Origin: Bacteroides rodentium JCM 16496
GTDB lineage: Bacteria; Bacteroidota; Bacteroidia; Bacteroidales; Bacteroidaceae
Reading direction: 5' to 3'
Assembly: GCF_000614125.1 (NCBI RefSeq)
Contig: NZ_BAKJ01000006.1
Coordinates: 103,463-167,462 of the forward strand
Length of the DNA stretch: 64,000 bases
Part shown: piece after piece, positions 2,902 through 59,204 of the stretch
Layout: each line of letters begins with the position of its first letter
Numbering within the stretch: the first letter of the stretch is position 1
The notes under the pieces: model-generated
The model's database searches: none
What the model saw: only the letters and a program-made list of their open reading frames with translations
Told to the model about the DNA's origin: nothing
Made by a program: the position numbers and the translations under genes

Positions 2902-2988
2902 AATGAAGAATGAAGAATGAAGAATGAAAAATGAAGTTTCATCCCCTTGTTTTCTCCTTTCTTAATCCTTAATCTTTAATCCTTAATC
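2902..2988. repeat. Heptamer repeat arrays in inverted arms
   Basis: Bases 2902-2936 are five tandem copies of a 7-bp unit, AATGAAG (one reads AATGAAA). After a 24-nt pyrimidine-rich spacer, bases 2961-2988 are four copies of CTTAATC (one reads TTTAATC). The second block lies directly after the marR stop on the minus strand. The same period and inverted layout recur at other gene ends in this window. Confidence 0.85.
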
Positions 2989-2996
2989 CCTATACT

Positions 2997-3443
2997 TTAG
3001 TCCTTGGTATTGAAGAAAATCTTCCTCAGCACCTCCTGGCTCACACTGAGCTCTTCGATGGTGATGCCTTTCAAGGCTTCTTTGAGGGTCTGGTTGGCAA
3101 TGACGCGCGCGCGTTCTTCCAGCTCCTTGCCGTCCTTGGTCAGGTGTATCAGATTGGTTCGGCGGTCTTTTTTGTCCGATATGCGCACGACGAGATGCTG
3201 ACGCTCCATATTGTCTATCAAACGCGTCATGCTGGGCTTGTCTTTGAAAGTTGCATTACACAACTCTTGTTGCGTCACCCCGTCCTTTTCCCATAAGAAG
3301 ATGAGGACGGTCCACTGTTCCGGAGTAATCTCCAGACCGTTCTGGCGGAAGTTGCGGGACAGCTTTCGGTTAATGGCAGCCGACACTTTACCGTTCAGTA
3401 TGGCAAAGATAAGGCGGATATCGAAGTTAAATTGCTCTATCAT
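2997..3443 (-). CDS. MarR family transcriptional regulator
   Basis: A 148-aa DNA-binding protein of the MarR class, which usually acts as a dimeric repressor released by small aromatic ligands or oxidants. The central winged helix is visible: the TPEQWTVLIFLWEK helix, then GVTQQELCNATFKDKPSMTRLID, which includes the recognition helix, and the wing with DRRTNLIHLTKDG. The start at 3443 is chosen because a promoter -7 element at 3468-3475 places transcription start near 3461. That excludes the longer frame starting at 3470. A 12-bp palindrome sits on the expected start site and is a likely operator. The gene is divergent from rpsF. Its targets are unknown. Confidence 0.88.
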   Translation of the reverse strand: MIEQFNFDIRLIFAILNGKVSAAINRKLSRNFRQNGLEITPEQWTVLIFLWEKDGVTQQELCNATFKDKPSMTRLIDNMERQHLVVRISDKKDRRTNLIHLTKDGKELEERARVIANQTLKEALKGITIEELSVSQEVLRKIFFNTKD

Positions 3444-3450
3444 GAAATTA

Positions 3451-3475: not shown

Positions 3476-3525
3476 GTGCAAGCCGAAGACAATTCCTATA
3501 TCCCTACACAAAAAAACATTAAATG

Positions 3526-8895: not shown

Positions 8896-8911
8896 GGAAT
8901 GCCGCCTTTGC

Positions 8912-8960
8912 AATTTATAATTTGTAACTTATAATTTGTAGCTTGTAACTTATAATTAAC
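8912..8960 (+). repeat. Heptamer tandem array after mtaB
   Basis: Seven consecutive 7-bp units fill this interval: AATTTAT, AATTTGT, AACTTAT, AATTTGT, AGCTTGT, AACTTAT and AATTAAC. The array begins 16 nt after the mtaB stop and ends 7 nt before the next start codon. Confidence 0.8.
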
Positions 8961-19356: not shown

Positions 19357-19358
19357 AA

Positions 19359-19468
19359 ATTAGGGATTAAGGATTAGGGATAAAGGATTAAGGATAAGGG
19401 GTAAGGGGCTAAGCTAATGTATACTTAGCTGCATTTAATCCTTTATCCTTAATCCTTTATTCTTATCC
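19359..19468. repeat. Heptamer repeat arrays in inverted arms between nitroreductase and dnaA
   Basis: Right after the nitroreductase stop, 19359-19407 is seven 7-bp units of the type ATTAAGG (ATTAGGG, ATTAAGG, ATTAGGG, ATAAAGG, ATTAAGG, ATAAGGG, GTAAGGG). After a spacer, 19434-19468 is five inverted units of the type CTTAATC, running into the last codons of dnaA. The arms can pair over more than 20 bp and probably terminate both genes. Confidence 0.85.
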
Positions 19469-25444: not shown

Positions 25445-25558
25445 TTCTGCCGCTTTAGCAAGCGATTCTGTGTTTTTTGGCTTGATTCCACTATCTTTTC
25501 TTGGAAGAAACTAATGATTGGGAGATGTCGATGCAGGCTTGTATGTTGGTTTCTGCTT

Positions 25559-27501: not shown

Positions 27502-29226
27502 ATGTCGGACAGAAAGAAGGCGTTCTGGTTTATTGCGCTGCTGAGTGTGCTTGTGGTTGTTCCTTTTTTGGGAGAAACCATTTTTTATTCCAAGGGAGAA
27601 CCGCGGGAGGCGATTGTTGCCCTTTCTATGCTGGAAAGTGAAAACTGGATACTTCCGGTGAACTATGGTACTGATATTGCTTATAAACCCCCTTTCTTCT
27701 ACTGGTCGATAGCTGCCGTCTCTTCCCTTTTTGGAGAGGTGACGGAGTTTTCTGCCCGTTTCCCGTCTGCACTCGCCTTTGTGGCCATGCAGTTGGTGTT
27801 CTTTGCCTTTGTGGCAAAACGTAAAAACGTCCGGACGGCATTTCTGGCTTCTATCCTTCTTTTGTCTTCTTTCGAGGTGCACCGGGCGGCTGTGGCTTGC
27901 CGGGTCGATATGGTTCAGGTTGCCTTTATCGTTATTTCCCTTTGCCTGCTGTTCCGCTGGGACGAGAAGGGATGCCGCGGAGTGCCCTGGCTTGCGGTGT
28001 TGCTGATGGGATGTGCCACGCTGACCAAAGGGCCGGTAGGCTTCCTGTTCCCTTGCGCATGTATCGGTGTGTATCAGTTGTTGCGCGGACGTTCTTTCTG
28101 GAAAGCGTTTTTCTCGCTGGCAGGTATCGGCTTGCTTTCTTTTGTTCCTTATTTTGCTTGGGTATACGTAGCTTACAGACAAGGCGGACAACCGTTCCTC
28201 GATTTGGTTCTGGAGGAGAATACCGGGCGGTTTATGGGCAAAATGTCCTACGAGTCCCACGAAAATCCTATATGGTATAATTTCCTGACTTTGATTTGGG
28301 GATGGATTCCCTGGACGCTGGTTCTGGTAATTTCCTTGTTTGGCTTGAAGTGGAAAAACATGCGCTGCCTGCCGGAAGGGGAGACCCTGCTGTTGCGGTT
28401 GAAGAAGGGCTGGACTGCTTTCCGCAACCAGTCTCCGCTACAATTGTTCATGTGGCTGGTCATTCTGATAATCTTTGTCTTCTACTGCATCCCCAAGAGT
28501 AAGCGGAGCGTTTATCTGCTTCCCATCTATCCGTTTATGGCAGTGCTGATAGCCGAGTATCTGTTGGCTTTGGTACAAAAGGGGGCCCGGGTTTTCAGGA
28601 TTTGTGCCGTCGTCTTTGCTTCTTTAGGCTTGTTGCTTACGCTTGTTTTTGTCGTAGTTCGTCTCGGCCTGGTTCCCGACAGCATTTTTGGAAGCGGGCG
28701 CCATGCCGCCGAGAATGTAGCCTTTATGTATGCGTTGGAGAATGTGGCTTTGTCTGTTCCCAAGTGGCTCTTGGTGGCGCTTCCCGTAGTAGCCGCTGTC
28801 TGCACGTTACGCATGGTGGCGAAGCGTGCGGATAGCCGGTCATTATTATATGGTATAGCAGGATGTATGCTTTGTCTTTTCGTATCATTGGATTCGGTTT
28901 ATCAGCCTACGGTGCTGGCTGTGAAATCAGACAGACATCTGGCTGAAAGGGTCAATACGTATGTTCCGGAAGGTGTGGTTTATTCTTACTCAAAAATGAG
29001 CTTCTATGGTGTCAACTTCTATCTGAAGGACCGCATGCGGCACATTGAAAAGGAACGTCCGTCTGACGGGGAGGGGTATTTGTTGGTTCCCGTAAAGGAG
29101 GAGGAGAATATGTTGGGAGAGCTGGGACAGACATATCATCTGGAAAAGATATTCCGTACAGACAGACGCAGTTGTGATATGCGTAATGAAGTTTGCATGT
29201 ATAAATTCAGGGCGTTTGACAATTGA
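27502..29226 (+). CDS. GT39/ArnT-like lipid-sugar glycosyltransferase
   Basis: Polytopic membrane protein of 574 aa with about eleven helices. It belongs to the dolichyl-phosphate-mannose mannosyltransferase/ArnT superfamily, which uses polyprenyl-phosphate sugars as donors. The first periplasmic loop carries KGEPREAIVALSML with the catalytic acidic residue, and the second YKPPFFYWSIA. A soluble C-terminal periplasmic part follows. The gene is divergent from the GtrA/GtrB pair, which could supply its donor. The acceptor could be lipid A, O-antigen or protein. The stop overlaps a heptamer array and the next gene starts 30 nt later. Confidence 0.85.
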   Translation: MSDRKKAFWFIALLSVLVVVPFLGETIFYSKGEPREAIVALSMLESENWILPVNYGTDIAYKPPFFYWSIAAVSSLFGEVTEFSARFPSALAFVAMQLVFFAFVAKRKNVRTAFLASILLLSSFEVHRAAVACRVDMVQVAFIVISLCLLFRWDEKGCRGVPWLAVLLMGCATLTKGPVGFLFPCACIGVYQLLRGRSFWKAFFSLAGIGLLSFVPYFAWVYVAYRQGGQPFLDLVLEENTGRFMGKMSYESHENPIWYNFLTLIWGWIPWTLVLVISLFGLKWKNMRCLPEGETLLLRLKKGWTAFRNQSPLQLFMWLVILIIFVFYCIPKSKRSVYLLPIYPFMAVLIAEYLLALVQKGARVFRICAVVFASLGLLLTLVFVVVRLGLVPDSIFGSGRHAAENVAFMYALENVALSVPKWLLVALPVVAAVCTLRMVAKRADSRSLLYGIAGCMLCLFVSLDSVYQPTVLAVKSDRHLAERVNTYVPEGVVYSYSKMSFYGVNFYLKDRMRHIEKERPSDGEGYLLVPVKEEENMLGELGQTYHLEKIFRTDRRSCDMRNEVCMYKFRAFDN

Positions 29227-29248
29227 TAATTGATAACTCATAACTCAT
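29221..29248 (+). repeat. Heptamer tandem array at the end of the GT39 gene
   Basis: Four exact 7-bp units: AATTGAT twice, then AACTCAT twice, followed by AGTTTAA. The array includes the GT39 stop codon and ends just before the next start. Confidence 0.75.
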
Positions 29249-29256
29249 AGTTTAAA

Positions 29257-46976: not shown

Positions 46977-47007
46977 AATTGAAAGAAACACCGGCCTTTG
47001 GCTGTTG

Positions 47008-47035
47008 TAATTATTAATTATTAACCATAAACCAT
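47008..47035 (+). repeat. Short heptamer array after the manganese catalase gene
   Basis: Four 7-bp units, TAATTAT twice, TAACCAT and AAACCAT, lie 31 nt past the catalase stop and end just before the next small gene. Confidence 0.6.
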
Positions 47036-47041
47036 TTGATT

Positions 47042-47152
47042 ATGAACAAGAAAACAGAAAAGAAACAGGAAGCGGTAAAGAACACGAAGAAGAGTGTTCA
47101 GACCAAAGAGTGTAAGTCTTCAACCGCATGCAAAAAAGCGGAGAAGAAGTAA
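47042..47152 (+). CDS. Lysine-rich 36-aa protein
   Basis: A small frame, MNKKTEKKQEAVKNTKK followed by SVQTKECKSSTACKKAEKK. Thirteen of 36 residues are Lys and there are two Cys. It looks disordered and could bind nucleic acid or act as a charged protectant. It is placed tightly between the catalase and the LEA-like lipoprotein, with normal spacing for a Bacteroides gene. I do not recognise it. Confidence 0.6.
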   Translation: MNKKTEKKQEAVKNTKKSVQTKECKSSTACKKAEKK

Positions 47153-47234
47153 GAGTTTGAAATCTTGAAATTTGTAAAGACTGTTCGGGAATGTAGTTTC
47201 CGGACAGTCTTAAGATGATTAAATTTGAATAGGT

Positions 47235-47525
47235 ATGAAAAAGTTATTGTTTGCAATTTTGATATTGACACTGGTAGTGTCTTTCACTTCTTGTCGTGAT
47301 AAGAAAGAGCGGAACAGGGCACAACACCAGGTTGAAAAAGTAAAAGAAGATATTAATGATGCGGCAGACAAAGTGTCTGATAAGGTTCAAGACGGTGCTG
47401 ATGCTGTAAAGGACGCATGGAACGATGCGAAGAAAGATGTCAAGCAAGGTGCTGAGAAGGCCAAGAAGGAGATAAAGGAAGGATACAATGATTTGAAAAA
47501 AGAAGCAAGTAAGAAGCTTGATTGA
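47235..47525 (+). CDS. LEA-like small lipoprotein
   Basis: A 96-aa predicted lipoprotein. The signal peptide MKKLLFAILILTLVVSFTSC ends at a lipobox Cys20. The mature part is one long amphipathic helix of Lys, Asp and Ala repeats of about 11 residues (DAADKVSDKVQDGADAVKD, AEKAKKEIKEGYNDLKKEA). Such sequences are typical of LEA and apolipoprotein-like proteins that protect membranes or proteins in dry or osmotic stress. It belongs to the cluster around the manganese catalase. Confidence 0.82.
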   Translation: MKKLLFAILILTLVVSFTSCRDKKERNRAQHQVEKVKEDINDAADKVSDKVQDGADAVKDAWNDAKKDVKQGAEKAKKEIKEGYNDLKKEASKKLD

Positions 47526-47578
47526 TTTTTGAATATGTATTTTTCTGTTAGTTGTAATATTTTGCATATAAATAGATT

Positions 47579-47785
47579 ATGGTTGGATTTGTAATATGGA
47601 TTGTAGGCTTGGTACTGACTATCAGGGCGGCTCTGGAAATATGGCGTATTCATGCGCCGGCAGAAAGAAGGCTGATAGCCATTATCCTGGTGGTTCTTAC
47701 CAGTTGGGTAGGGTTGCTGTTCTACTACTTTTATGGTAAGTCCCGTATGCCACAGTGGTTGGGCGCTGGGTTCGAAGGGGCTTGA
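47579..47785 (+). CDS. PLDc_N-like two-helix membrane protein
   Basis: A 68-aa protein with two transmembrane helices (about residues 2-20 and 31-52). The second, AIILVVLTSWVGLLFYYFYGKSR, matches the end of the PLDc_N domain found at the front of cardiolipin synthases and as a free-standing small protein. The ATG follows a 53-nt gap after the lipoprotein gene. It is the last gene of the stress cluster, before a bidirectional terminator. Confidence 0.8.
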   Translation: MVGFVIWIVGLVLTIRAALEIWRIHAPAERRLIAIILVVLTSWVGLLFYYFYGKSRMPQWLGAGFEGA

Positions 47786-47888
47786 CGGCTGTATCGCCAT
47801 TTATGTTGACTGGAATATCTTAAAACAAAAATACATTGGTTGATAGTAGTGGCCTGAGCTGTTTTTGTTTTGAGCTGTAGAAAATCAG

Positions 47889-47934
47889 TAAAGTACTACC
47901 GTATACCGATAAAAAGTATAACAGTAGTACTTTA
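47889..47934. terminator. Bidirectional terminator
   Basis: A perfect 11-bp stem, TAAAGTACTAC (47889-47899) with GTAGTACTTTA (47924-47934), ends the plus-strand stress cluster and the minus-strand HAD gene. Confidence 0.7.
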
Positions 47935-47975
47935 TTATATAAGCTCCAATCAGCTGTCATTGTTTGGCCGCCGCC

Positions 47976-48731
47976 TCAATCTTTGTGGCGAAGGCTATTG
48001 CTGGCATCTAATGCGGTTTGCAACCTTTCCCAGTCGTCACAAAGCGCCTGCATGGACGGAAACAATAAATCTGCTCCGGCATCCAGTAATACCTGCCTGT
48101 CCAGCGGACCGGTATTGACTGCCACAGTGAATATGCCGGCTGCTGTTCCGGCTTGTACCCCGATAGGTGCATTTTCCACAACTATAGCTTCGTTGGCTTG
48201 TACCCCTGCCTTTTCCAGTCCCATCAGATAAGGTTCGGGATGGGGTTTCCCATATTTCACATCAAAGGCGGTCACCATGTGGTCGGGCTGAAACATACCG
48301 GGGAAGTTGTGGGCAAGGCGGCTCAGCAGGGAGTGTTGGCCCGATCCGGTGACAAGTACCGGAACAAGTCCTGCCGCTTTTACCTTTTGTAGTACTTCCC
48401 AAGCGCCCGGCATACGCTCCGGTTCCGGGTGGGTACTGAATTCGGCGCTTTTCTCTGCATAGATGTTTTCTATCATCTCGGGAGTGGCATCCTTGCCATA
48501 TTGGCGTTGGTAAACGATGTTGATGGTAGCGGCCCCGGTACGCCCCTCGTGCATGTACGCCTCTTCACGGCTCAGGTGCAGGCCGTGGCGTTCCATCACC
48601 TTGTGCCAGGCATCAGCATGGTAGGGCATGGAGTTGAACAGTACGCCGTCCATGTCAAAAAGAACAGCTTTCAATTGGATGTTGGGATGCCCGTGCTTTT
48701 CTAGATAACGGGCGATAGAGTTTTCGAACAC
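47976..48731 (-). CDS. HAD family hydrolase, beta-phosphoglucomutase-like
   Basis: Phosphatase or phosphomutase of the haloacid dehalogenase superfamily, 251 aa. The nucleophile motif is AVLFDMDGVLFNSMPYH. Motif II lies in LVTGSGQHS, the Lys in KYGKPHPEPYLMG, and the Asp/Glu motif in IVVENAPIGVQAG, where Glu-Asn replaces the usual Glu-Asp. A helical cap lies between motifs I and II. The substrate is likely a sugar phosphate. It is downstream of pgi but separated from it by a heptamer array. Confidence 0.88.
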   Translation of the reverse strand: MFENSIARYLEKHGHPNIQLKAVLFDMDGVLFNSMPYHADAWHKVMERHGLHLSREEAYMHEGRTGAATINIVYQRQYGKDATPEMIENIYAEKSAEFSTHPEPERMPGAWEVLQKVKAAGLVPVLVTGSGQHSLLSRLAHNFPGMFQPDHMVTAFDVKYGKPHPEPYLMGLEKAGVQANEAIVVENAPIGVQAGTAAGIFTVAVNTGPLDRQVLLDAGADLLFPSMQALCDDWERLQTALDASNSLRHKD

Positions 48732-48738
48732 TTGGTAG

Positions 48739-48859
48739 ATTGAGGATTAAAAATTAAGAAATGCAGGGTAAATAAATTGAGAGTTGAAAATCGGGAAACA
48801 GCTTTTCATTGCGCTTGTTGCACAGCCATTTCTCAATTTTCAACTCTCAATTCTTAATT
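48739..48859. repeat. Heptamer-armed hairpin after pgi
   Basis: Left arm units ATTGAGG, ATTAAAA and ATTAAGA begin at 48739. An exact 17-bp inverted repeat, 48775-48791 with 48836-48852, follows. The right arm reads CTCAATT, TTCAACT, CTCAATT and CTTAATT in 7-bp phase (48832-48859). It lies directly after the pgi stop on the minus strand. Confidence 0.8.
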
Positions 48860-48861
48860 TA

Positions 48862-50198
48862 TCAAAGTCTTGCCTGGATAGCTTTGGACTCTTCTTCGTA
48901 GCCGGGCTTGTTCAGCAATGCAAACATATTCTTCTTGTATGCTTCCACACCCGGTTGGTTGAACGGATTGACTCCCAAAATATAACCGCTGATGCCGCAA
49001 GCCTTTTCGAAGAAGTAGAGCAGACCTCCGATGCTTTCTTCATTCAGCGCGGGGATAACGATGCGCATGTTGGGTACACCACCGTCCACGTGGGCAAGCT
49101 GTGTTCCCAATTCGGCCATCTTGTTCACTTCGTCCACGTGCTTGCCTGCCAGGAAGTTCAGTCCGTCGAGGTTGGCTTCGTCCGAAGGTACCTGCAGGGA
49201 GTGCTGTGTCTTCTCCACTGAGATGACAGTTTCGTAGATGGTACGTTCGCCTTCCTGAATCCATTGTCCCATGGAGTGCAGGTCGGTGGAGAAATCTACG
49301 GCAGCAGGGAAGATACCCTTGTTTTCCTTACCTTCGGATTCACCGTAAAGTTGCTTCCACCATTCGCTTACGTAGTGCAGTTTGGGGTTGTAGTTTACTA
49401 GGATTTCAATTTTCTTGCCGTTCTTGTAGAGTTCGTTACGCGTAGCAGCATAGATGGCAGCGGGATTCTCTGCAAACGGAACGTCGATGCCGCAAGCTTT
49501 TTCCATGGCAACTGCGCCTGCCACCAGTTTCTCAATGTCGAAACCTGCCACGGCGATGGGCAGCAAGCTACCGGAGTCAGTACGGAGAAACGTCCGCCTA
49601 CGTTATCGGGGATGATGAAGGATTTGTAGCCTTCGTTGTCAGCCGTTACGCGGGCAGCGCCTTTCTTGGCATCGGTGATGGCAACGATAACCTTCTTTGC
49701 CATATCCTTGCCGCGTTGGTCTTCGCATTGCTTTTTCAGCAGACGGAACGCCAGGGCTGTTTCAGTAGTGGTACCGGATTTGGAGATGTTGATAACACCG
49801 AATTTCTTGTCTTTCAAGTATTCGGTAAGTTCATATAGATAATCTTCACCGATGTTGTGTCCTGCATACAGAATGACCGGAGCCGTTTTCTTTTCTTGCA
49901 ACCAGGTGAAGCTGTTTGACAAAGCCTCTATCACCGCACGTGCACCGAGGTAACTTCCGCCAATGCCGGCAACTACTACTACTTCGCAGTTGTCACGCAA
50001 CGTCTGTGCAGTAGCCTTCAGGTCGGCCAGGTGCTCTTTAGTGATGGAAGAGGGGAGGTGCAACCAGCCCAAGAAGTCGTTGCCCTTACCGGTACCATTC
50101 TCTAATGCTTCCTGTGCAGCCTTTACCTGGGTTTCATAGGCGAAAACGTTTTCTTTGGAGATGAATCCAAGAGTCTTTTCAATGTTCAAACTAATCAT
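48862..50198 (-). pseudogene. pgi: Glucose-6-phosphate isomerase, frameshifted
   Basis: Glycolytic enzyme that interconverts glucose 6-phosphate and fructose 6-phosphate. The first frame carries [20 protein letters not shown] and [20 protein letters not shown], the sugar-phosphate binding motifs. The second carries [21 protein letters not shown] and the C-terminal [17 protein letters not shown] with the catalytic Lys. The break near 49574 turns [14 protein letters not shown] into TPVACCPS; one base is missing. Mended length is 445 aa, normal for the short Pgi form. As the enzyme is central, a sequence error is probable. It follows gpsA by 48 nt. Confidence 0.9.
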
Positions 50199-50246
50199 AA
50201 TATTCAATGTTTTAAATTCAGTATTTCGTTTTATCTTTTTCCGCGC

Positions 50247-51242
50247 TTACCGGAATGAATCAGTAAGCAGCTTGATTTCAATCGTCGGCGAGATGCGCTC
50301 GTACAGAATGTTGTATACTGCATCTACAATAGGCATGTTGACATGATAATGCTTGTTGATTTCCTTGATACATTTTGTACCGTAGTACCCTTCGGCGATC
50401 ATTTCCATTTCAATCTGCGCGCTTTTCACGGAGTATCCCTTGCCAATCATCGTACCGAATGTACGGTTACGGCTGAAATTGGAGTATCCCGTCACCAGCA
50501 GGTCACCTAAATAAACAGAATCATTCACGTTTCTGTTCAAGGGGTTCACCGTTTGCAGGAATCTGTCCATTTCCTGTATGGCATTGGACATGAGCACAGC
50601 CTGAAAGTTGTCGCCATATTTCAGACCACTGCAGATGCCGGCTGCAATGGCATATACATTTTTCAGTACCGAACTGTATTCGATGCCTGAAACATCGTTG
50701 CTGACAGATGTCTTGATGAATGAACTGGCCAGCTTGCGGGCAATGGTGCAGGCCTTGTCGGTGTCGGGACAGCCGATGGTCAGATAAGAAAGGCGTTCCA
50801 GAGCCACTTCTTCCGCATGGCAGGGACCTGCCAATACAGCGATATTTTCAGCCGGGACGCCATATTCCTTGGTGAAATATTCCGAGACAATCATGTTGTC
50901 ATCGGGCACGATGCCTTTGATGGCGGTGATGATGAACTTATCTTTAATCTTAGTCTTCAGCTTCTTCAAGTGAGCTTTCAGATAGGGGGAAGGTGTAACG
51001 AAGATGAGCGTATCAGATTCTTTCACGACATCATTGATGTTGGAGTTGAAGTTGATACGCTTGGTGTCAAATTTGACGCCCGTCAGGTAGGCAGGGTTAT
51101 GGCCAAGCCGTTTGAAGTCGGCAATACGGTCATCTCGCCGCATATACCAGTTTATCGACTCCGCTTGAGCCAATACCATTTTGGCAATGGCGGTTGCCCA
51201 ACTTCCTCCGCCCATGATGGCTATCTTACCGGGTAGTTTCAT
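50247..51242 (-). CDS. gpsA: Glycerol-3-phosphate dehydrogenase (NAD(P)+)
   Basis: Makes sn-glycerol 3-phosphate from dihydroxyacetone phosphate for phospholipid synthesis. The Rossmann motif is IAIMGGGSWATAIAKMVL at the N terminus. AGPCHAEEVALERLSYLTIG is the family signature. The catalytic Lys lies in EYSSVLKNVYAIAAGICSGLKYGDN. Length (331 aa) is normal. It is in the same transcript as pgi and downstream of lysS, with a terminator-like heptamer element between lysS and gpsA. Confidence 0.95.
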   Translation of the reverse strand: MKLPGKIAIMGGGSWATAIAKMVLAQAESINWYMRRDDRIADFKRLGHNPAYLTGVKFDTKRINFNSNINDVVKESDTLIFVTPSPYLKAHLKKLKTKIKDKFIITAIKGIVPDDNMIVSEYFTKEYGVPAENIAVLAGPCHAEEVALERLSYLTIGCPDTDKACTIARKLASSFIKTSVSNDVSGIEYSSVLKNVYAIAAGICSGLKYGDNFQAVLMSNAIQEMDRFLQTVNPLNRNVNDSVYLGDLLVTGYSNFSRNRTFGTMIGKGYSVKSAQIEMEMIAEGYYGTKCIKEINKHYHVNMPIVDAVYNILYERISPTIEIKLLTDSFR

Positions 51243-51248
51243 ATCGAA

Positions 51249-51360
51249 ATTAATAATTAAAAACTAAAAATTAAAAGGGGGGTGAAGGAGTGCCTTCACC
51301 TTCCTCCTATCTTTAATTTTGCCTATTTAATTCTTTAATTTTTAATTCTTAATTCTTCCG
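51249..51360. repeat. Heptamer-armed hairpin between lysS and gpsA
   Basis: Left arm: ATTAATA, ATTAAAA, ACTAAAA, ATTAAAA (51249-51276). A GC-rich stem GGTGAAGG/CCTTCACC (51281-51300) follows. Right arm: TTTAATT, CTTTAAT, TTTTAAT, TCTTAAT (51326-51353), overlapping the last codons of lysS. On the minus strand it could act as a terminator or attenuator. Confidence 0.8.
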
Positions 51361-53071
51361 ACCCAGTCAGCAACTTCGTTTACGGTCGGGTTTGCCAGTT
51401 CCAATTTGTATTTTTTGTTGATGCCGCAGATGTCCATGTGGAGCTTTTGCGGATTCACATCTTTCATGTCACTCACCAGGTTGTAGCCGGCCTTCTGGAT
51501 GACGGGTACCCAATCTTCGGGGATACCCAGTTCCGTGTATCGTGCGGGAACATCTTTGGGGATAACTTTTTCCGGACGCATCTGCGGGAAGAAAAGCACT
51601 TCCTGGATGAATGATTCGCCCGTCATCAACATTGTCAGACGGTCGATACCGATACCGATGCCCGATGTGGGAGGCATACCGTATTGCAATGCTTTCAAGA
51701 AGTCCTGGTCGATGAACATCGCTTCGTCGTCTCCCTTTTCGCTCAAGCGAAGCTGGTCTTTGAAGCGTTCTTCCTGGTCTATCGGATCGTTCAGCTCGCT
51801 GTAGGCATTGGCAAGTTCCTTGCCGTTCACCATCAGCTCGAAGCGTTCGGTCAGTCCCGGCTTGCTGCGGTGCATCTTGGTCAGCGGGCTCATCTCTACG
51901 GGATAGTCGGTGATGAAGGTGGGCTGTATGAAAGTACCTTCGCAGAATTCTCCGAAGATTTCATCAATCAGCTTGCCCTTGCCCATGGTGTCGTCAATCT
52001 CCATATTCAGTTCCTTGCACACCTGGCGGATTTCGTCCTCACTCTTGCCTTCGAGGTCGTATCCGGTCTTTTCCTTGATGGCTTCCAGGATGGGCAGACG
52101 GCGGTAGGGAGCTTTGAAGCTGATGGTCTTGCCGTCTATCTCGGTTTCTGTGCAGCCGTTTACGGCGATACAGATGCGTTCCAGCAATTTCTCCGTAAAG
52201 CTCATCATCCAGTTGTAGTCCTTGTACTGCACGTACAGCTCCATACAAGTGAATTCCGGGTTATGGTTCTTGTCCATACCTTCGTTACGGAAGTTCTTGC
52301 CTATTTCATATACACCTTCGAATCCGCCCACAATCAGTCGCTTCAAGTAAAGCTCGGTGGCGATGCGCAGGTAGAGGTCCATGTCCAGGGAATTGTGGTG
52401 TGTGATGAACGGACGGGCGCTTGCTCCGCCGGGGATGGATTGCAGGATGGGAGTTTCCACTTCCGTATATCCGGCTTCGTCCAGCACGGCACGCATGGTC
52501 TTGATGACGGTGGCACGCTTCAGGAATTTTTCTTTCACGCCGTCGTTCACGATAAGGTCTACATAACGCTGGCGGTAGCGGAGTCGGGGTCTTCGAAAGA
52601 ATCGTAAGCCACGCCGTCCTTATATTTCACGATAGGCAGGGGCTTGATGCTCTTTGCAAGTACGGTCAGCTTCTTGGCATGGATGCTGATTTCGCCCATC
52701 TGGGTACGGAATACGAATCCTTCGATGCCGATAAAGTCGCCTAAATCGAGCAAACGTTTGAACACGGTGTTGTACATCTCCTTGTCCTCGTCCGGACAGA
52801 TGTCATCGCGGGTGATATATACCTGGATGCGTCCTTTGGAGTCCTGCAATTCGATGAAGGATGCTTTGCCCATGATACGGCGGCTCATGATACGTCCGGC
52901 AACGGACACTTGGCGAGGCTCTGCGTCGTCGTTGAATTCAGCTTTAATATCGGTAGAGAAAGCATTTGTTACATACTCTGCTGCGGGATAAGGTTCGATG
53001 CCCATCGCGCGAAGTTCATTCATGCTGTTGCGACGAATGATTTCTTGTTCACTTAGTTCTAATACGTTCAT
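51342..53071 (-). pseudogene. lysS: Lysyl-tRNA synthetase (class II), frameshifted
   Basis: Charges tRNA-Lys with lysine. The N-terminal OB-fold anticodon-binding domain is in the first frame (AGRIMSRRIMGKASFIELQD, VYITRDD). The second frame holds the catalytic core, with motif 2 [20 protein letters not shown] and motif 3 [15 protein letters not shown]. The break near 52585 reads [10 protein letters not shown] instead of [18 protein letters not shown], due to one missing C. Mended length is 576 aa, normal for Bacteroides. The gene is essential, so a true frameshift is very unlikely unless a second copy exists. A -7 element TACTTTTG lies at 53099-53106. Confidence 0.93.
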
Positions 53072-53185
53072 TTCGCTATATTTCACTCAATTTGGGTACA
53101 AAAGTACGAAACATTTTTCAGATAGCGAACCTTTTGACGGAAAATACGTACCTTTGCATCCGGTAAAAAGAAATAGGTATATAGT

Positions 53186-54541
53186 ATGACAGCACAAAAG
53201 ACACCCACAGCGCTGGGTACGGAGAGCATAGGAAAGCTCTTGATGCAATATGCCGTTCCGGCAATCATTGCCATGACGGCATCCTCTTTATATAATATGG
53301 TAGACAGTATTTTCATCGGTCATGGAGTGGGCACGATGGCTATTTCAGGATTGGCTTTGACTTTTCCGTTGATGAATCTGGCTGCGGCTTTCGGTTCGTT
53401 GGTGGGGGTGGGAGCTTCCACGCTGATCTCTGTCAAGCTGGGGCAGAAGGACTATGACACGGCACAGCGTGTGCTGGGTAATGTCTTTGTGCTGAACATA
53501 GTGCTGGGATTGGCTTTTACTGTCATAGTCATGCTCTTTCTCGATCCGATTCTTTACTTCTTCGGGGGCAGTGACCAGACGGTGGGCTATGCCAGGGATT
53601 ACATGCAGATTATCCTTCTGGGAAATACCGTGACCCATCTCTATCTGGGGCTGAATGCCGTGTTGCGTTCTTCGGGGCATCCGCAAAAGGCGATGTATGC
53701 CACCATAGCTACGGTGGTTGTCAATACCATACTCGACCCGGTGTTTATTTATGGTTTCGGTTGGGGCATACGTGGTGCTGCCATCGCTACTATCGTGGCG
53801 CAAGTCATCTCTTTGACATGGCAGCTCAAGCTGTTCGGCAATAAGGATGAGCTGTTGCATTTCCATCGGGGTATTTTCCGTCTGAGGCGTAAGATTGTAT
53901 TCGATTCACTTGCCATCGGCATGTCTCCTTTCTTAATGAACATGGCTGCCTGCTTCATCGTTATCCTTATCAATCAAGGATTGAAGAAGTATGGCGGCGA
54001 CTTGGCTATCGGGGCTTTTGGCATAGTGAACCGTCTGGTTTTCATTGTCGTGATGATTGTGATGGGACTGAATCAAGGCATGCAACCCATTGCCGGATAT
54101 AATTTTGGAGCGAAACTGTATGAACGGGTAAACAAGGTGCTGAAACTGACGATAATTTATGCCACGGCAGTGACCACTTTCGGTTTTCTTGTCGGCATGT
54201 TGCTACCGGACTTGGTGGTGGGCATCTTTACATCGGATGCGGAACTGACGGAGCTTTCGGCTACGGGACTGCGCATTACAGTAATGTTCTTTCCCATTAT
54301 CGGTTTCCAGATGGTGACTTCCAACTTTTTCCAGAGCATAGGCATGGCAGGCAAAGCGATCTTCCTTTCCCTTACGCGGCAGATGCTGATTCTGCTTCCT
54401 TGTCTGCTTATTCTGCCGCACTTTTTTGGCGTGGCCGGGGTGTGGTATAGCATGCCGGTATCTGATTTGCTTGCAAGCTTGATAGCACTGGTGATGCTGG
54501 TTTGTCAATTCCGTAAGTTTAAGACTGCTGCAGCACATTAA
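53186..54541 (+). CDS. MATE family efflux transporter
   Basis: Integral membrane antiporter of 451 aa with twelve predicted helices in two pseudo-symmetric halves. The N-terminal half has VDSIFIGHGVGTMAISGLAL and GVGASTLISVKLGQKDYDTA, typical of the DinF/NorM-like MATE group. The second half has IVMGLNQGMQPIAGYNFGAK. Such pumps export drugs or metabolites using sodium or proton gradients; the substrate is unknown. A -7 element TACCTTTG at 53149-53156 lies 30 nt before the ATG, back to back with the lysS promoter. Confidence 0.9.
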   Translation: MTAQKTPTALGTESIGKLLMQYAVPAIIAMTASSLYNMVDSIFIGHGVGTMAISGLALTFPLMNLAAAFGSLVGVGASTLISVKLGQKDYDTAQRVLGNVFVLNIVLGLAFTVIVMLFLDPILYFFGGSDQTVGYARDYMQIILLGNTVTHLYLGLNAVLRSSGHPQKAMYATIATVVVNTILDPVFIYGFGWGIRGAAIATIVAQVISLTWQLKLFGNKDELLHFHRGIFRLRRKIVFDSLAIGMSPFLMNMAACFIVILINQGLKKYGGDLAIGAFGIVNRLVFIVVMIVMGLNQGMQPIAGYNFGAKLYERVNKVLKLTIIYATAVTTFGFLVGMLLPDLVVGIFTSDAELTELSATGLRITVMFFPIIGFQMVTSNFFQSIGMAGKAIFLSLTRQMLILLPCLLILPHFFGVAGVWYSMPVSDLLASLIALVMLVCQFRKFKTAAAH

Positions 54542-54625
54542 AATAAAATTTTTTATATGCTTTCTGTAGATATTCCGTTAGAATATTTATATTTGCTATC
54601 TGCAAACTAATAGATGAACAAGCAT

Positions 54626-55255
54626 ATGGACAATAATTTTATAGTCAATATAGGCCGTCAGCTGGGTAGTGGCGGGCGGGAGATAGGCGAGAAGCTGGCT
54701 ACCCGTCTGGGAATTGATTTTTATGATAAGGAGCTGATTAGGCTGGCTTCTGAAGAGAGCGGACTGTGTTGTGAGTTTTTTGAAAAAGCTGATGAGAAAG
54801 CTTCACAAGGCATTATTGGAGGACTCTTCGGCATGCGTTTCCCTTTTGTCAGTGACGGGGCTATCCCAGCCACGAATTGCCTGAGTAATGATGCTCTGTT
54901 CAAAGTGCAAAGTGACGTGATACGCCGATTGGCGGGGGAGAAGCCCTGTTTGTTCGTTGGACGTTGTGCCGATTATATTCTTCGGGATAATCCACGCTGT
55001 GTCAATGTTTTCATTTCCTGTTCCAATGAGGAGCGCATCAAACGCCTCTGCCGAATGCATTCCATTTCTGAGCGTGAAGCGGAGGAGATGATGAACAAAG
55101 CGGACAAGAAACGCGCCGAATACTATAACTACTACAGCTATAAAAAATGGGGGGCTGCCGAGACATATCATTTGTGCATCGATTCTTCTGTATTGGGCAT
55201 TGATGCTACAGTGGATTTTATAGAAGAGTTCGTCAAGAAGAAACTGAAACTTTAA
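54626..55255 (+). CDS. Cytidylate kinase-like family protein
   Basis: P-loop kinase of the cytidylate kinase 2 family, about 209 aa. The phosphate-binding loop is GRQLGSGGREIGEKLATRLG, followed by IDFYDKELIRLA. The later motif FVGRCADYIL and the lid-like NEERIKRLCRMHSISEREAEE are also typical. It may phosphorylate a nucleotide or another small molecule. This group lacks the usual CMP-recognition insert, so the substrate is uncertain. The ATG at 54626 is preferred over one four codons earlier. It is convergent with the AspT-type gene. Confidence 0.85.
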   Translation: MDNNFIVNIGRQLGSGGREIGEKLATRLGIDFYDKELIRLASEESGLCCEFFEKADEKASQGIIGGLFGMRFPFVSDGAIPATNCLSNDALFKVQSDVIRRLAGEKPCLFVGRCADYILRDNPRCVNVFISCSNEERIKRLCRMHSISEREAEEMMNKADKKRAEYYNYYSYKKWGAAETYHLCIDSSVLGIDATVDFIEEFVKKKLKL

Positions 55256-55337
55256 GAATTTAAAGATTAAGAATTAAAACTAAAGAAGGTGTGCCATTAA
55301 CCGTTTTGACACACCTCTTTTAATTCCTTAATTCCTC
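55256..55337. repeat. Heptamer-armed terminator between convergent genes
   Basis: Starting one base after the stop: GAATTTA, AAGATTA, AGAATTA, AAACTAA, AGAAGGT (55256-55290). A hairpin AAAGAAGGTGTG/CACACCTCTTT (55282-55320) follows, then the inverted arm TTTTAAT, TCCTTAA, TTCCTCC (55318-55338). It should terminate both flanking genes. Confidence 0.82.
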
Positions 55338-56999
55338 CTACATCATTGTCAGCAATATCATCTGCCCCGCCAAGATGCGCAGGAACATTGTCAACGGATA
55401 TACTGTAGAATAACCTACTGCCGGAGCGTCATTGCCCGATGTCTGGTTGGCATATGCCAATGCAGGAGGGTCTGTGTTGCTACCGGCAATCAGACCCATT
55501 AACGTGAAGTAGTTCACCTTGCAGTAGAAGCGGGCAATCATACCGATTATCAGCAAAGGAATAACGGTTATCAGGAAGCCATATCCCACGTACAGCAATC
55601 CGCTGCCTTCTACCACCGTCTGCACAAAATGCTCACCGGCTTCTATACCGACACTGGCAAGGAAGAGCACGATACCGATTTCACGCAACATCAAGTTGGC
55701 ACTCATGGTGGTGTACGTCACAAGATGCATTTTGTGGCCGAAACGTCCGATGAGGATGGCCACTACCAGCGGCCCACCGGCCAGACCTAACTTAACTGGT
55801 GTCGGCATACCCGGGAATGCGATAGGCAGACTACCCAGCAGGATTCCCAAAAAGATTCCCACAAAAATAGTTACGATATTCGGAGTGTCCAAACGTTTCA
55901 ACTGATTACCCAATACGCCGGCTACACGTTCTACGGCATCCTGCTGGCCTACCACCATTACGCGGTCACCTACCTGAAGTACCAGATTGGGATCGGCAAA
56001 CAAGTCCATACCCGAACGGTTGATACGGGTTACATTTACACCGTACATGCTGCGGAAGTGGAGGCTTCCCAGCTTCTTGCCATTGATTTCGGACTTGGTG
56101 ACGAGGATACGGCGGGAAACCATCGGAGTGTCCTGCTTTTCCCAGTCTACGTGTATTTCTTTTCCGATAAAGGCAGCCACCGCTTCGGCATCTTCTTCGG
56201 AACATACGATGAAGAGCTGGTCTCCTACGTGGAATATTGTTTCGTGATTGGGGATACTGACGTGCCCCTCGTGGCGTATGCGCGAACATACAAACGGACG
56301 TCCCAGGAAATCCTTTATCTGGAGCAGGGTCTTTCCGGAAATTGATTCATTGCGTACTTCAAGGTGAAGCATGTGCGGCTGATGCTTTACATCGGCTTCC
56401 TGCGTGTTGAGTTCCTGTTCCTCTTTCTTGAGGTTCACCCGGCAGATATAGCGGATGGCTATGATGGAACCTATGATACCTACCACACCAAGCGGATAGG
56501 CGCAGGCATATCCCAGTGCAATGGGGTCTCCCGTATAGTTTATCTGGTTCAGGGCTTCTTGTGCGGCACCCAGACCCGGAGTGTTGGTTACGGCACCGTA
56601 GAGAATACCTACTATCATTGGCAAGTCTATCCCTCCGTCAATGAAGTAGATGCTCAATGCTACTGCGATATTCAGCAACACGATGCCGACAGCAAGCATG
56701 TTCAGCCGCATACCCCCTTTCTTAAAAGAAGAGAAGAAGGAGGGCCCGACTTGCAGACCGATACAGAATACAAATAAAATCAAACCGAATTCGCGGATGA
56801 AATGCAAAATGTGTGTTTCGCCCGTGAAGCCAAAATGGCCCATCAGGATACCGGCAAAGAGGACAAATGTAACCCCCAACGATACCCCGAAAATCTTAAT
56901 CTTACCCAGCAATACGCCCACAGATATTACGAATGCATACAAACAAACGATGTGAGCGACAGATGAAGGGTCCCATAGCAAGCTTTCTAACCAATTCAT
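55338..56999 (-). CDS. AspT/YidE-type transporter with two TrkA-C domains
   Basis: A 553-aa membrane protein of the aspartate:alanine exchanger family. Two blocks of about five helices flank a cytoplasmic part with two TrkA-C (RCK_C) domains, seen as [21 protein letters not shown] and [21 protein letters not shown]. The second membrane half holds [17 protein letters not shown] and the late motif [17 protein letters not shown], characteristic of the family. Members exchange amino or dicarboxylic acids; YidE and YbjL types have unknown substrates. It is monocistronic and divergent from mutA. Confidence 0.88.
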
Positions 57000-57269
57000 A
57001 GTACCTTATTAATATGTCGTTTTTTAAATTTCGCGCAAAATTACTTAATAAAAAGGAGGTGGCAAAGGCTTTGTGGTACTTTTTGCTATATCAACTTTGC
57101 AAAAGTAGAGTATGCTTCCGGTGAATACGCTGAATCCGTATGGACACGGAGTCATCTGTAAGTGCAATTTTCTCTAAAAAAAGATTTTGTTCTAAGTATT
57201 TCCTTATATTTGCAAGTCTCTTGATGACAAAAATGAATAGTATTCATCTATTTAAATTTTAAATAAACT

Positions 57270-59168
57270 ATGGCAGACAGTAAAGAAAAACTCTTCTCCG
57301 ACTTTTCTCCCGTTTCCACTGAGCAGTGGATGGAGAAAGTTACCGCAGACCTGAAAGGGGCGGATTTCGAGAAGAAGCTCGTTTGGAAGACAAACGAAGG
57401 ATTTAAGGTGAAACCTTTCTACCGTATGGAGGACCTGGAAGGGTTGAAGACGACAGATGCCCTTCCCGGCGAGTTTCCTTATCTCAGAGGTACCAAGAAA
57501 GACAACAATGAATGGCTTGTTCGTCAGGAAATCAAAGTGGAATGCCCCAAAGAGGCCAATGCCAAGGCGTTGGACATCTTGAATAAAGGTGTAGATTCAC
57601 TCTCTTTCCATGTAAAGGCCAAGGAATTGAACGCAGAGTATATTGAAACTTTGTTGAAAGATATTTGCGCGGAATGTGTCGAGTTGAATTTCTCTACCTG
57701 CCAGGGGCATGTGGTGGAACTTGCAGAACTTCTTGTCGCTTATTTCCAGAAAAAGGATTATGACTTGACGAAATTGCAGGGCTCCATCAACTATGACTAC
57801 TTCAACAAGATGCTGGCCAAAGGTAAAGAAAAAGGTGATATGGTGGCAACAGCCAAGGCGCTGCTCAAGGCTACCGCTTCCCTTCCGAAATACCATGTAT
57901 TGAATGTGAACGCGTTGACATTAAACAATGCGGGTTCTTATATTTTCCAGGAACTGGGTTATGCTTTGGCTTGGGGTAATGAATATATGAATCAGCTGGT
58001 TGATGCCGGTCTGCCGGCTGCAATGGTAGCCAAGAAGATTAAGTTCAATTTCGGTATCAGTTCCAACTACTTCCTTGAAATAGCCAAATTCCGCGCTGCA
58101 CGTATGCTGTGGGCTAATATTGTGGCTTCTTACAGTCCCGAGTGTCTGCGCGACTGCGACAACAAGGGTAAGGATAACGAATGCCGCTGTGCAGCCAAGA
58201 TGAAGATTCATGCGGAAACTTCTTCATTCAACCTGACTTTGTTTGATGCACACGTAAACTTGTTGCGTACGCAGACTGAGGCGATGAGTGCTGCCCTTGC
58301 CGGCGTTGACTCAATGACGGTTACTCCGTTCGACAAGACTTATGATGCTCCTAACGAATTCTCTGAGCGTATGGCGCGTAACCAACAACTGCTGTTGAAA
58401 GAAGAATCGCACTTCGATAAGGTTATTGACCCGGCTGCAGGTTCCTACTATATCGAGAACTTGACCGTCTCTATTGCTAAGCAGGCTTGGGACCTCTTCC
58501 TCGCTGTAGAAGAAGACGGTGGTTTCTATGCTTCCGTGAAAGCCGGAAAAGTGCAGGCTGCCGTAAACGAGAGCAACAAGGCCCGTCATGCTGCAGTCGC
58601 CAAGCGCAAGGAAGTGTTGCTGGGTACCAACCAGTTCCCCAACTTTAATGAAAAGGCCGGAGATAAGAAACCGGTTGAGGCTACTTGCTGTTGCGGCGGC
58701 GGACATACGTGCGAAAAAGATGTTCCGACACTGAACTTTGACCGTGCTGCCAGTGAATTTGAAGCGTTGCGTCTCGAAACAGAGGCTTCCGGCAAACGTC
58801 CGAAAGCGTTTATGCTGACTATCGGTAATTTGGCCATGCGCCAGGCACGTGCACAGTACTCTTGCAACTTCCTGGCTTGTGCCGGATACGAAGTTGTGGA
58901 TAACCTCGGTTTCCCCACCGTAGAAGAAGGTATAGAAGCAGCTATGGCTGCCAAGGCCGACATCGTGGTATTGTGTTCAAGTGATGATGAATATGCAGAA
59001 TATGCTGTTCCTGCCTTCAAGGCTCTGAATGGCCGTGCCATGTTTATCGTAGCCGGTGCTCCTGCTTGCATGGACGACTTGAAAGCTGCCGGTATCGAGA
59101 ACTTTATCCATGTCCGTGTCAACGTATTAGAGACATTAAAAGAATTCAACGCCAAACTTTTGAAGTAA
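57270..59168 (+). CDS. mutA: Methylmalonyl-CoA mutase small subunit
   Basis: Non-catalytic partner of MutB, 632 aa, in the succinate-to-propionate pathway. The barrel-like N-terminal half starts LFSDFSPVSTEQWMEKVTADL. The C-terminal domain has the cobalamin-binding fold but lacks the DxHxxG cobalt ligand (it reads GNLAMRQARAQYSCNF), as expected for MutA. Two Cys-rich inserts are unusual: one near residue 291 (ECLRDCDNKGKDNECRC) and one near 472 (ATCCCGGGHTCEKD). A -7 element TATATTTG lies at 57205-57212. mutB follows after 36 nt containing a short heptamer-like repeat. Confidence 0.93.
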   Translation: MADSKEKLFSDFSPVSTEQWMEKVTADLKGADFEKKLVWKTNEGFKVKPFYRMEDLEGLKTTDALPGEFPYLRGTKKDNNEWLVRQEIKVECPKEANAKALDILNKGVDSLSFHVKAKELNAEYIETLLKDICAECVELNFSTCQGHVVELAELLVAYFQKKDYDLTKLQGSINYDYFNKMLAKGKEKGDMVATAKALLKATASLPKYHVLNVNALTLNNAGSYIFQELGYALAWGNEYMNQLVDAGLPAAMVAKKIKFNFGISSNYFLEIAKFRAARMLWANIVASYSPECLRDCDNKGKDNECRCAAKMKIHAETSSFNLTLFDAHVNLLRTQTEAMSAALAGVDSMTVTPFDKTYDAPNEFSERMARNQQLLLKEESHFDKVIDPAAGSYYIENLTVSIAKQAWDLFLAVEEDGGFYASVKAGKVQAAVNESNKARHAAVAKRKEVLLGTNQFPNFNEKAGDKKPVEATCCCGGGHTCEKDVPTLNFDRAASEFEALRLETEASGKRPKAFMLTIGNLAMRQARAQYSCNFLACAGYEVVDNLGFPTVEEGIEAAMAAKADIVVLCSSDDEYAEYAVPAFKALNGRAMFIVAGAPACMDDLKAAGIENFIHVRVNVLETLKEFNAKLLK

Positions 59169-59204
59169 GCAACTTCAATCGTAAATCGTCAAATCGTAAA
59201 TAAC

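Follow-up and report, generated by a model that had tools for sequence, protein, structure and literature searches.

Tandem seven-base arrays in Bacteroides spacers: inverted hairpins at stop codons and direct repeats near start codons

Between the genes of a 64,000-nucleotide (nt) stretch of the Bacteroides rodentium JCM 16496 genome (assembly GCF_000614125.1, contig NZ_BAKJ01000006.1, positions 103,463 to 167,462 of the forward strand; hereafter the window, with its first letter as position 1) lie short tandem arrays whose unit is seven bases long. Their neighbours include dnaA, pgi, lysS, gpsA, mutA and mutB. An initial annotation of the window proposed that these heptamer arrays form a class of 3′-end element, and perhaps slippage hot spots. 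Here we follow them through further stretches of the same genome and through relatives. Our favoured reading, to which we give a probability of roughly 0.55, is that the arrays comprise two kinds of dispersed intergenic element: inverted arrays that begin at the stop codon, are predicted to fold into a long hairpin and likely act as a terminator or as a protector of the 3′ end of the messenger RNA (mRNA), and direct arrays near start codons, the best-studied family of which is predicted to fold weakly and is probably a translation leader.

Results

Heptamer arrays of the window

Period-7 arrays were recovered at the window sites named in the initial annotation both by Tandem Repeats Finder and by a separate autocorrelation scan (Table 1). 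Inverted arms had been reported at five of these sites; we found them at four (19358, 48739, 51248 and 55266), and the arrays 2902–2936 and 2961–3005, which are of opposing sense and differ in their units, gave 0 inverted pairs. Similarly, the placement of every site near a stop codon held for the array at 2961 and for eight others, which touch a stop codon or lie within about 31 nt of one, and failed for the array at 2902, which is 61 nt away. Because the arrays at 59177, 29216 and 8907 are close to or before the start of the next gene, the stop codon is not the sole anchor.

The hairpin between nitroreductase and dnaA has arms at 19361–19391 and 19435–19465 that can pair in several registers spaced 7 bp apart, with a predicted folding free energy (ΔG) of −46 kcal/mol. 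An inverted-pair search placed the arms of the lysS–gpsA site at 51248–51354, around an inner GC stem (GGTGAAGG CACT CCTTCACC), and those of the 55256 site at 55266–55332. Among the direct arrays, the one at 8907, which follows a miaB-like gene (ending at 8895; UPF0004 and radical SAM domains) and precedes a lipid A acyltransferase gene starting at 8968 or 9073, is weakly self-complementary within the array only. The array at 29216–29249 occupies most of the 30-nt gap before the HD-domain gene (29257), ends 7 nt before its start and has no inverted repeat (predicted ΔG −0.7). The array at 47008 is itself without an inverted repeat and is adjoined by a small terminator-like stem (46992–47004), and that at 59177, also without an inverted repeat, is a copy of a dispersed 25-bp motif described below.

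Table 1. Heptamer arrays of the window and their surroundings.
Element	Position	Strand	Context
Direct array, AATGAAG x5	2902..2936	+	61 nt from the stop of the MarR-like gene; no inverted partner
Array, CTTAATC (own GGATTAR word)	2961..3005	-	Minus-strand MarR-like gene (2997-3443) stops about 7 nt away
Direct array, AATTTGT/AACTTAT	8907..8957	+	11 nt past the stop of the miaB-like gene (8895)
Inverted-arm hairpin, GGATTAR	19358..19465	.	Spacer of a convergent gene pair, nitroreductase (stop 19356) and dnaA (stop 19463)
Direct array, AATTGAT/AACTCAT	29216..29249	+	Runs over the PMT_2 stop codon (29226)
Direct array, TAATTAT/TAACCAT	47008..47035	+	31 nt past the Mn-catalase stop (46976)
Inverted-arm hairpin, GTTGANA/AATTGAG	48739..48862	-	Spacer flanked by pgi (3′ part, ending at 48862) and the HAD gene (starting at 48731)
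Inverted-arm hairpin, AATTAAA	51243..51341	-	Fills the lysS-gpsA spacer; predicted ΔG -29.1
Inverted-arm hairpin, core GGTGTG/CACACC	55256..55337	.	Spacer of a convergent gene pair, one cytidylate-kinase-like (stop 55255), the other an Asp/Al exchanger (stop 55338)
Leader element, AATCGTAAATCGTCAAATCGTAAAT	59177..59201	+	8 nt past the mutA stop (59168), 3 nt before the mutB ATG (59205)

Period 7 is over-represented in spacers

We examined the window together with 40 further stretches of the same genome (861,675 bp in all; the own sample), within which 512 spacers totalling 165,797 bp were surveyed, and compared them with the gpsA neighbourhood of related species, sampled at 80 loci (1,417,193 bases; a single neighbourhood, with common ancestry among its sequences), and with stretches of other relatives, denoted by codes such as G001, G006, G013, G031 and G035. 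The own genome comprises 4,884,492 bases in 148 contigs, at 85.85% completeness. The gpsA product of the window is 98% identical to that of Bacteroides muris. The sister species G481, available as one contig, has a dnaA 98% identical to that of the window and 94–95% nucleotide identity over two blocks of the region.

At a score of at least 12, the autocorrelation scan of the window returned 7 arrays of period 7 (6 of them non-coding), 6 of period 14 and 3 of period 21; each of the remaining periods from 5 to 24 gave 0–3 arrays, and six shuffles of the window gave 0 for periods 7, 14 and 21. The initial annotation had named a comparison with shuffled intergenic sequence as its check, and here the excess was borne out: the 512 own spacers held 34, 29 and 12 arrays of periods 7, 14 and 21, respectively, where five shuffles averaged 0.0 for these periods, and the neighbouring periods 6 and 8 gave 0 and 4 arrays. 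Around gpsA, 35 of 40 period-7 arrays with a score of at least 14 lay within spacers, and period 7 exceeded other periods in G006 and G013, which were compared without shuffles. A tandem 7-nt unit is thus over-represented in spacers, as in the heptameric intergenic repeats of the type described by Rehm and colleagues.

Period-7 arrays per megabase numbered 72 in the own sample, 100 in G006, 139 in G013, 32 in G001 and 17.5 in G031, and 235 in G035, whose stretches were mostly chosen at pattern matches. None were found in 24–64 kb each of G003, G007, G011 and G014, or in 193 kb (17 loci) of order-level relatives, a sample too small to call absence. Near dnaA and elsewhere, 26 loci of genus relatives (281 kb) gave only 1 period-7 and 5 period-14 arrays with a score of at least 12, so array density varies widely.

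The own spacers also held a second tandem class, of period 22, with 40 arrays at a score of at least 12 and 24 at a score of at least 14 (for example window 25549–25677, L083 2394–2470, L086 6108–6181 and L113 9165–9254, among others). This class has many different units, some of them palindromic; it is as common as period 7 and bears no sequence relation to it. Five contigs of G035 (C1, C36, C67, C2 and C45, in loci L206, L214, L216, L219 and L223) start or end within heptamer arrays, and such arrays therefore appear to break assemblies. Finally, a reversed control pattern (AANGNTN units) had up to 195 matches in one genome (G006, G013, G015, G033 and G039 were those named), and it follows that another abundant heptamer word exists in those genomes.

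Arrays are either paired into hairpins or direct

When 51 own arrays were scored for an inverted partner within 130 bp, 22 of them (in 14 spacers) reached a score of at least 14 and the remaining 29 scored 9.5 or less, so that the scores were bimodal; among flanks of other arrays, used as a control, 52 of 974 reached 14. Spacers with paired arrays had predicted folds of −29 to −62 kcal/mol (for example TAAGGAATAAGGGTTAGGG...CCCTAACCCCTACTCC), and the median distance between stop codon and stem was 2.5 nt in 28 co-directional heptamer hairpins, compared with 18 nt in 107 other hairpins. A hairpin predicted to be stable thus lies directly past the coding sequence, as is expected of an intrinsic terminator. 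Some unpaired arrays span the whole short distance between the stop of one gene and the start of the next, as in five co-directional spacers of 24–44 nt (for example TAACTCATAACTTATAACTCATCACTCATG, ΔG 0.0).

Arrays of the two kinds taken together were depleted from spacers between divergent genes, with 3 arrays in 29.1 kb compared with 44 in 106.0 kb elsewhere in the own sample (p=0.0075). The same depletion was seen in the 80 loci (p=0.025) and in G035 (p=0.009); G001 and G031 had zero arrays in divergent spacers, in too little sequence for significance, and G006 and G013 together had 0 in 24 such spacers.

In one and the same spacer the structure is kept and the word changes

The lysS–gpsA spacer forms a hairpin in many species from units that differ: AATTAAA in the window, AATGAAG in B. 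fragilis and GTTGAAA in B. finegoldii. Of 81 loci, 31 had a spacer of 70–170 nt (one of them trimmed by hand), and these folded with z-scores of −1.8 to −9.7. We then split 22 representatives chosen from the 31 at the loop of their own fold and exchanged the arms: own arms paired with a mean of −31.0 kcal/mol, swapped arms with −14.7, and own arms ranked 1 or 2 in 21 of 22 rows, with L059 as the exception.

At the nitroreductase/dnaA spacer there are six heptamer hairpins written in about four words, namely GGATTAA in the window, ACRRTGA in L122, ARGTATT in L125 and L128, and TAGTGWT in L126 and L127. By eye, the same spacer holds ordinary terminator hairpins in L123, L124 and L131; the other 15 relatives at dnaA have no comparable spacer or lie further off, some of them also with terminator-like hairpins. 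The cytidylate-kinase/exchanger spacer carries a TTGACAG hairpin in B. nordii and an ordinary terminator-like hairpin, with the core GGCTGCG or GGCTGCA, in B. muris (which has no heptamer arms) and L003. In G481 a core of this latter type sits inside heptamer arms that match those at 55256 in the window, where the core is a different one, which suggests that the heptamer arms were added outside an older terminator. Heptamer hairpins thus alternate with ordinary terminator-like hairpins in one spacer. Such comparisons separate the structure, which tends to be kept, from the spelling, which drifts.

Stem arms co-vary, and co-directional stems favour G.U on the transcribed strand

In co-directional heptamer stems, G.U pairs outnumbered A.C mismatches on the transcribed strand by 29 to 13 (18 non-redundant hairpins, p=0.02), and other co-directional hairpins showed 121 to 56 (n=99). 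There was no such excess in convergent hairpins (2:6 in heptamer hairpins, 50:56 in others) or in divergent ones (2:3 and 8:14). A C-to-T bias on the transcribed strand could produce a similar excess of G.U, but the skew of the spacers runs the wrong way for it: in the own genome as in the 80 loci, A exceeds T and C is no less frequent than G. In ten close comparisons of heptamer hairpins, 11 of the 12 two-sided changes preserved pairing, compared with 4.2 expected. One paired change lies in the window, where an A-T pair of the 48739 hairpin is G-C in G481 and in L001, at the position that is free in the word TTGANAG.

Two of five sites differ from the sister species by multiples of seven

The initial annotation had suggested that the arrays are slippage hot spots and that copy number be compared between strains. 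At two of the five sites compared with G481 the lengths differ by multiples of 7 nt: at 59177 G481 differs by exactly one inserted heptamer (7 nt), and at the dnaA site one of its arms lacks 7 nt and the other 21 nt relative to the window. These exact multiples make slippage the likely mode of growth and speak for the suggested hot spots, in so far as two sites changed in copy number and three did not. Together with the paired change at 48739, the 7-nt steps fit slippage by heptamers and a joint change of the two arms, to which either selection or template switching may have led.

A proposed leader family lies close to start codons

The dispersed motif at 59177, AATHGTAAATHGTCAAATHGTAAAT, has a 7-8-7 layout with an irregular 8-nt step and occurs in 39 exact copies in the whole genome. 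The own sample contains 23 copies, compared with 0 in the shuffle; because these were allowed up to two mismatches outside the free positions, their conservation is partly a product of how they were selected, and the letters at the free positions are not. The motif was found in 17 of 60 genus genomes and, read backwards, in none. An open reading frame of at least 60 codons starts within 25 nt downstream of 18 of the 23 copies (15 with ATG), as compared with 339 of 1502 random spots, and the family thus consists, like the TAACTGA type, of direct repeats several nucleotides upstream of a start codon in sense orientation. Leaders are predicted to fold weakly (−2.6 kcal/mol, compared with −6.8 in 140 other genes; p=0.0005). 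In the own sample their free positions read C28 A27 T14 G0; across 17 genomes, the 285 free positions of 95 copies included 1 G, as read from the matches listed. A G at the free position would create an ATG, which points to selection on translation. The genes behind ten of the 18 leaders are ordinary: SufE, FtsA, dUTPase, an HD-domain protein, a release factor, a WbqC-like protein, an ATP-grasp enzyme, ketopantoate hydroxymethyltransferase, P-II and a PLP enzyme.

Upstream of 5 of the 23 copies, three of them in one 20-kb stretch, lies GCGCAGC (random windows, 7 in up to 2000), and 6 of 8 readable inverted leader pairs are spaced 66–76 bp apart, the others 41 and 148. This common sequence and spacing suggest that part of the family may have spread as small mobile hairpins. 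At L088 14762–14958, divergent dUTPase and HD-domain genes both carry an outward-facing leader element; the outward orientation of two such elements recurs at G012:C14:23097-23212, G031:C1:5115298-5115413 and G446:C1:2414428-2414542.

Words differ between lineages

Three copies of GGATTAR match 32 times in the own genome, at about 21 sites on 16 contigs, and six of 149 genus genomes contain this word (the own genome, G481 with 7 matches, G469 with 7, G472 with 5, and G435 and G438 with 1 each). That it might be present throughout the phylum was rejected, as only 3 of 395 Bacteroidota genomes have it, the own genome included. ARGTATT reaches its highest frequency in G001 and G031, and AGTTGAR in G035. 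Over 96 sites in five genomes, unit sharing (distance of 1 or less) was 0.202 within a genome and 0.097 between genomes, a difference reached in 0 of 5000 permutations. The units are lineage dialects.

Some words have one free position. In G013, 68 AATNGTC units from 14 arrays read C26 G18 T13 A11 there and 85–99% one letter elsewhere; in G035, 138 TTGANAG units read T69 A42 G15 C12, in stretches partly chosen at pattern matches. The own TTARGGA shows A46 G43 in 89 units only after arrays were sorted among competing families, and in G006 and G001 several positions vary, with no single free one. The units AATTAAA, AATGAAG, TTGANAG and TAAATHG lack a G-tract, and ATTAGGG variants of GGATTAR carry GGG. 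G-quadruplexes were considered as a general reason for the arrays and rejected: most units have no G-tract, and a quadruplex takes four.

Other features of the region

Rfam models at gathering thresholds identified a single tRNA in the window and no known RNA family at the arrays. Bacteroides promoters differ from the sigma-70-like consensus. Promoters were tried as an explanation and set aside, with 17 sigma-70-like sites at 46900–59400 compared with 18.4 in shuffles, under a sigma-70 model that may not fit the host. The genes pgi (48862–50207), lysS (51342–53086) and mutB (59205–61354) are each split over two frames, which in three core genes suggests small assembly indels rather than real loss. 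Other inverted hairpins occur at window 33379–33460 and in the mutA–mutB spacer of L060 and the pgi–HAD spacers of L011 and L065, with words resembling CACAGAGGA (about 9 bp) or CACGGATT (about 10–12 bp). In the gpsA–pgi spacers of L016 and L064, GC-rich inverted repeats resembling CCTCTCCCC...GGGGAGAGG follow the stop codons and are perhaps another dispersed family.

Methods

Arrays were detected with Tandem Repeats Finder and, independently, by autocorrelation. Gene calls (672 in 862 kb) came from a Markov predictor of our own making, which misses some genes. Duplicate spacers and spacers beyond set length limits were dropped from the counts of stop distance and of divergent spacers, and 20 of 269 hairpins with an intermediate period-7 score were excluded from the stem test. 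A multiple alignment of eight lysS–gpsA spacers was made and not used further. At least 3 of the 40 further own stretches (L098, L099 and L100) were selected at pattern matches, as were L205 of G001, L167 of G031 and 13 of the 20 stretches of G035.

Discussion

The period and positions of the arrays, the complementarity of their arms, the 7-nt differences from the sister species at two sites and the alternation with ordinary terminator-like hairpins in one spacer are direct observations. How they arose and what they do can be put conditionally. Arrays would grow by replication slippage of 7 nt; the heptamer arms may have been added outside an older terminator core, as at 55256, and would stay complementary by selection on RNA, with template switching between the arms as a possible helper; and inverted arrays at the mRNA 3′ end would act as a terminator or 3′-end protector. 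Because most hairpins are without a U-tract, they may work by terminating transcription, by blocking 3′ exonucleases or through RNA processing. The class of 3′-end element proposed initially thus fits the inverted arrays, which start at the stop codon, alternate with terminators and have arms that co-vary, and it does not take in the direct arrays that precede start codons, as do the leader copies including that at 59177.

Several observations weigh against the reading as terminators or protectors and leaders. By eye, most outer stems have no U-tract behind them (one is present at 51276–51305 on the + strand and one beside 47008), and a terminator scan touched two of the five sites that it covered, at the 51276–51305 (+) inner stem and the 46992–47004 stem. 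Since lysS and gpsA abut in other species, gpsA would have to have a promoter of its own if termination at the hairpin between them were complete. Among the eight closest lysS–gpsA spacers an arm often pairs better with a foreign partner than with its own, and pairing survives only 2 of 9 two-sided changes in three lysS–gpsA pairs that show little period 7. The ten stem comparisons share sequences, and one-sided changes in them break pairing in 30 of 49 cases. The G.U bias in heptamer stems is modest (by element 10:3, p=0.09), and the opposite lean of convergent heptamer stems comes from three non-redundant elements. The other three sites compared with G481 show substitutions, one-base gaps or another core, and no 7-nt step. 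Lastly, a purine-first order of the arrays is strong in the 80 related loci alone (p=1e-6), weak in the own sample (p=0.13) and absent from G035.

We regard it as unlikely that the arrays are simply neutral replication tracts, in which 7-nt slippage acts in non-coding, non-promoter DNA, template switching keeps the arms alike and nothing is selected. Such tracts would account for the copy changes relative to G481, for the fast gain and loss in one spacer across relatives, for the one-sided changes that mostly break pairing and for the rank of heptamers as the most abundant class of longer-unit repeat in most genomes, for which polymerase slippage was proposed (Mrazek 2007, as cited in the parts consulted of MacGregor 2015, PMC4679880, and of PMC4692102). 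They would not be expected to show G.U above A.C solely on the transcribed strand of co-directional hairpins, to alternate with ordinary terminators at convergent spacers, or, in the leaders, to take an irregular 8-nt step at 23 places (0 in the shuffle) and exclude G at the free positions. Rather improbable, in our view, are mobile elements of the type of miniature inverted-repeat transposable elements (MITEs) or REPINs, with heptamers as terminal inverted repeats, that transpose between spacers. The 39 exact leader copies and their distribution over 17 of 60 genomes, the pair spacing and the upstream GCGCAGC, the occurrence of ACCATGC in 3 of 33 heptamer loops (1 of 200 others) and the scatter of GGATTAR over 16 contigs would suit them; other inner sequences and lengths differ between heptamer hairpins, however, one of three own inverted leader pairs is just the two leaders of divergent genes, and some spacers are entirely array from stop to start.

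Binding platforms, in which a modular protein reads most positions of the unit on RNA or DNA and changes with it in each lineage, would explain the dialects and the single free position of AATNGTC and TTGANAG. We think them improbable, since several positions vary in G006 and G001, the own TTARGGA emerges only after family sorting, the exclusion of G from leaders is explained by avoidance of ATG, the G035 stretches were partly chosen at pattern matches, and there is no candidate factor, with ordinary genes behind ten leaders. Hardly credible is a fail-safe role, in which units carrying TAA, TGA or TAG offer stops in every frame by virtue of period 7. By eye, the sense strand of many post-stop arms does contain a stop triplet; sense stops are, however, generally not above antisense stops where arrays have a mixed composition (26/34 in the own sample, 42/55 in the 80 loci, 8/11 in G031, 11/10 in G001 and 79/66 in G035), and any period not divisible by 3 would suffice, yet only 7 is enriched among the short ones. 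We rejected all-frame stops as the purpose of the arrays.

On the reading of two kinds of element, one spacer can be read across many relatives as an ordinary terminator, a heptamer hairpin or a hairpin in another word, and related species spell the word differently, likely with the same job kept. The leader family adds a second class, which follows a clear rule of sequence in that its free positions avoid forming ATG. Unrelated bacteria also carry heptamer repeats, and there is no agreed reason for the number 7 or for the repeats themselves. A bolder and improbable idea is a heptad code of many bacteria, in which the seven-base word of each lineage stands in tandem at dozens of unlinked gene ends and starts and is read on RNA by a co-evolving modular factor, such that the Bacteroides, GGGNATC and TAACTGA repeats would be versions of one system. 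The clearest words would then have six fixed letters and one free, the fold would matter while the spelling drifts, and sets of terminators would be rewritten in step.

Terminators need shorter stems than the 23–54 or so pairs of heptamer arms. The inverted arrays resemble intrinsic terminators in occupying the same spacers on the same side of the stop, some with an inner GC stem, and differ from them in the length of these arms and in mostly having no U-tract after the outer stem. REP/REPIN sequences and MITEs are dispersed intergenic inverted repeats of lineage-specific sequence. The subset of leader copies with a common GCGCAGC and 66–76-bp spacing is similar to them, whereas the arms of heptamer hairpins consist of a 7-bp tandem unit, with no common core or length across hairpins.

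A search of the open-access literature found no description of such heptamer arrays in Bacteroides. The initial claim that they are undescribed in the genus holds to this extent, and, in the parts of the sources consulted, closely similar repeats are described from Xanthomonas, Nostoc, Beggiatoaceae and five other Bacteroidetes. In the sections of Rehm et al. 2015 that we drew on (PMC4692102), dispersed GGGNATC repeats of Xanthomonas and GGGGA(C/T)T repeats of Nostoc are found on the sense strand close to stop codons, which some of them overlap, and are under-represented between divergent genes; inverted pairs number 70 in one Xanthomonas genome and 75 in another, and the function of the repeats is left unresolved there. 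The Bacteroides arrays share with these a heptamer unit, with a free position in the words of some genomes, a dispersed and mostly intergenic location, inverted pairs, proximity to stops, rarity between divergent genes, variation between close species and ordinary neighbours. As far as those sections go, the repeats of Rehm and colleagues are G-rich and form quadruplexes in vitro, whereas Bacteroides units are mostly AT-rich and without G-tracts, so quadruplex formation cannot be the general reason; and Bacteroides has several words per genome, alternation with terminators and a measured covariation of arms.

TAACTGA repeats precede start codons in marine Beggiatoaceae and also occur in cyanobacteria and five Bacteroidetes, Bacteroides not being among the genera named in the part consulted (MacGregor 2015, PMC4679880). 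Like the leaders, these are direct heptamers a few nucleotides upstream of the starts of unrelated genes, and in some Bacteroidetes they adjoin other heptamer repeats; unlike them, on the same portion of that paper, the Bacteroides units differ, and the leader family is laid out as 7-8-7, with G kept from its free positions. The Bacteroides arrays thus belong with the known heptamer repeats and combine both placements, at the stop and at the start; what is new in them is the mostly AT-rich units, the alternation with terminators, the covariation of the arms and the dialects.

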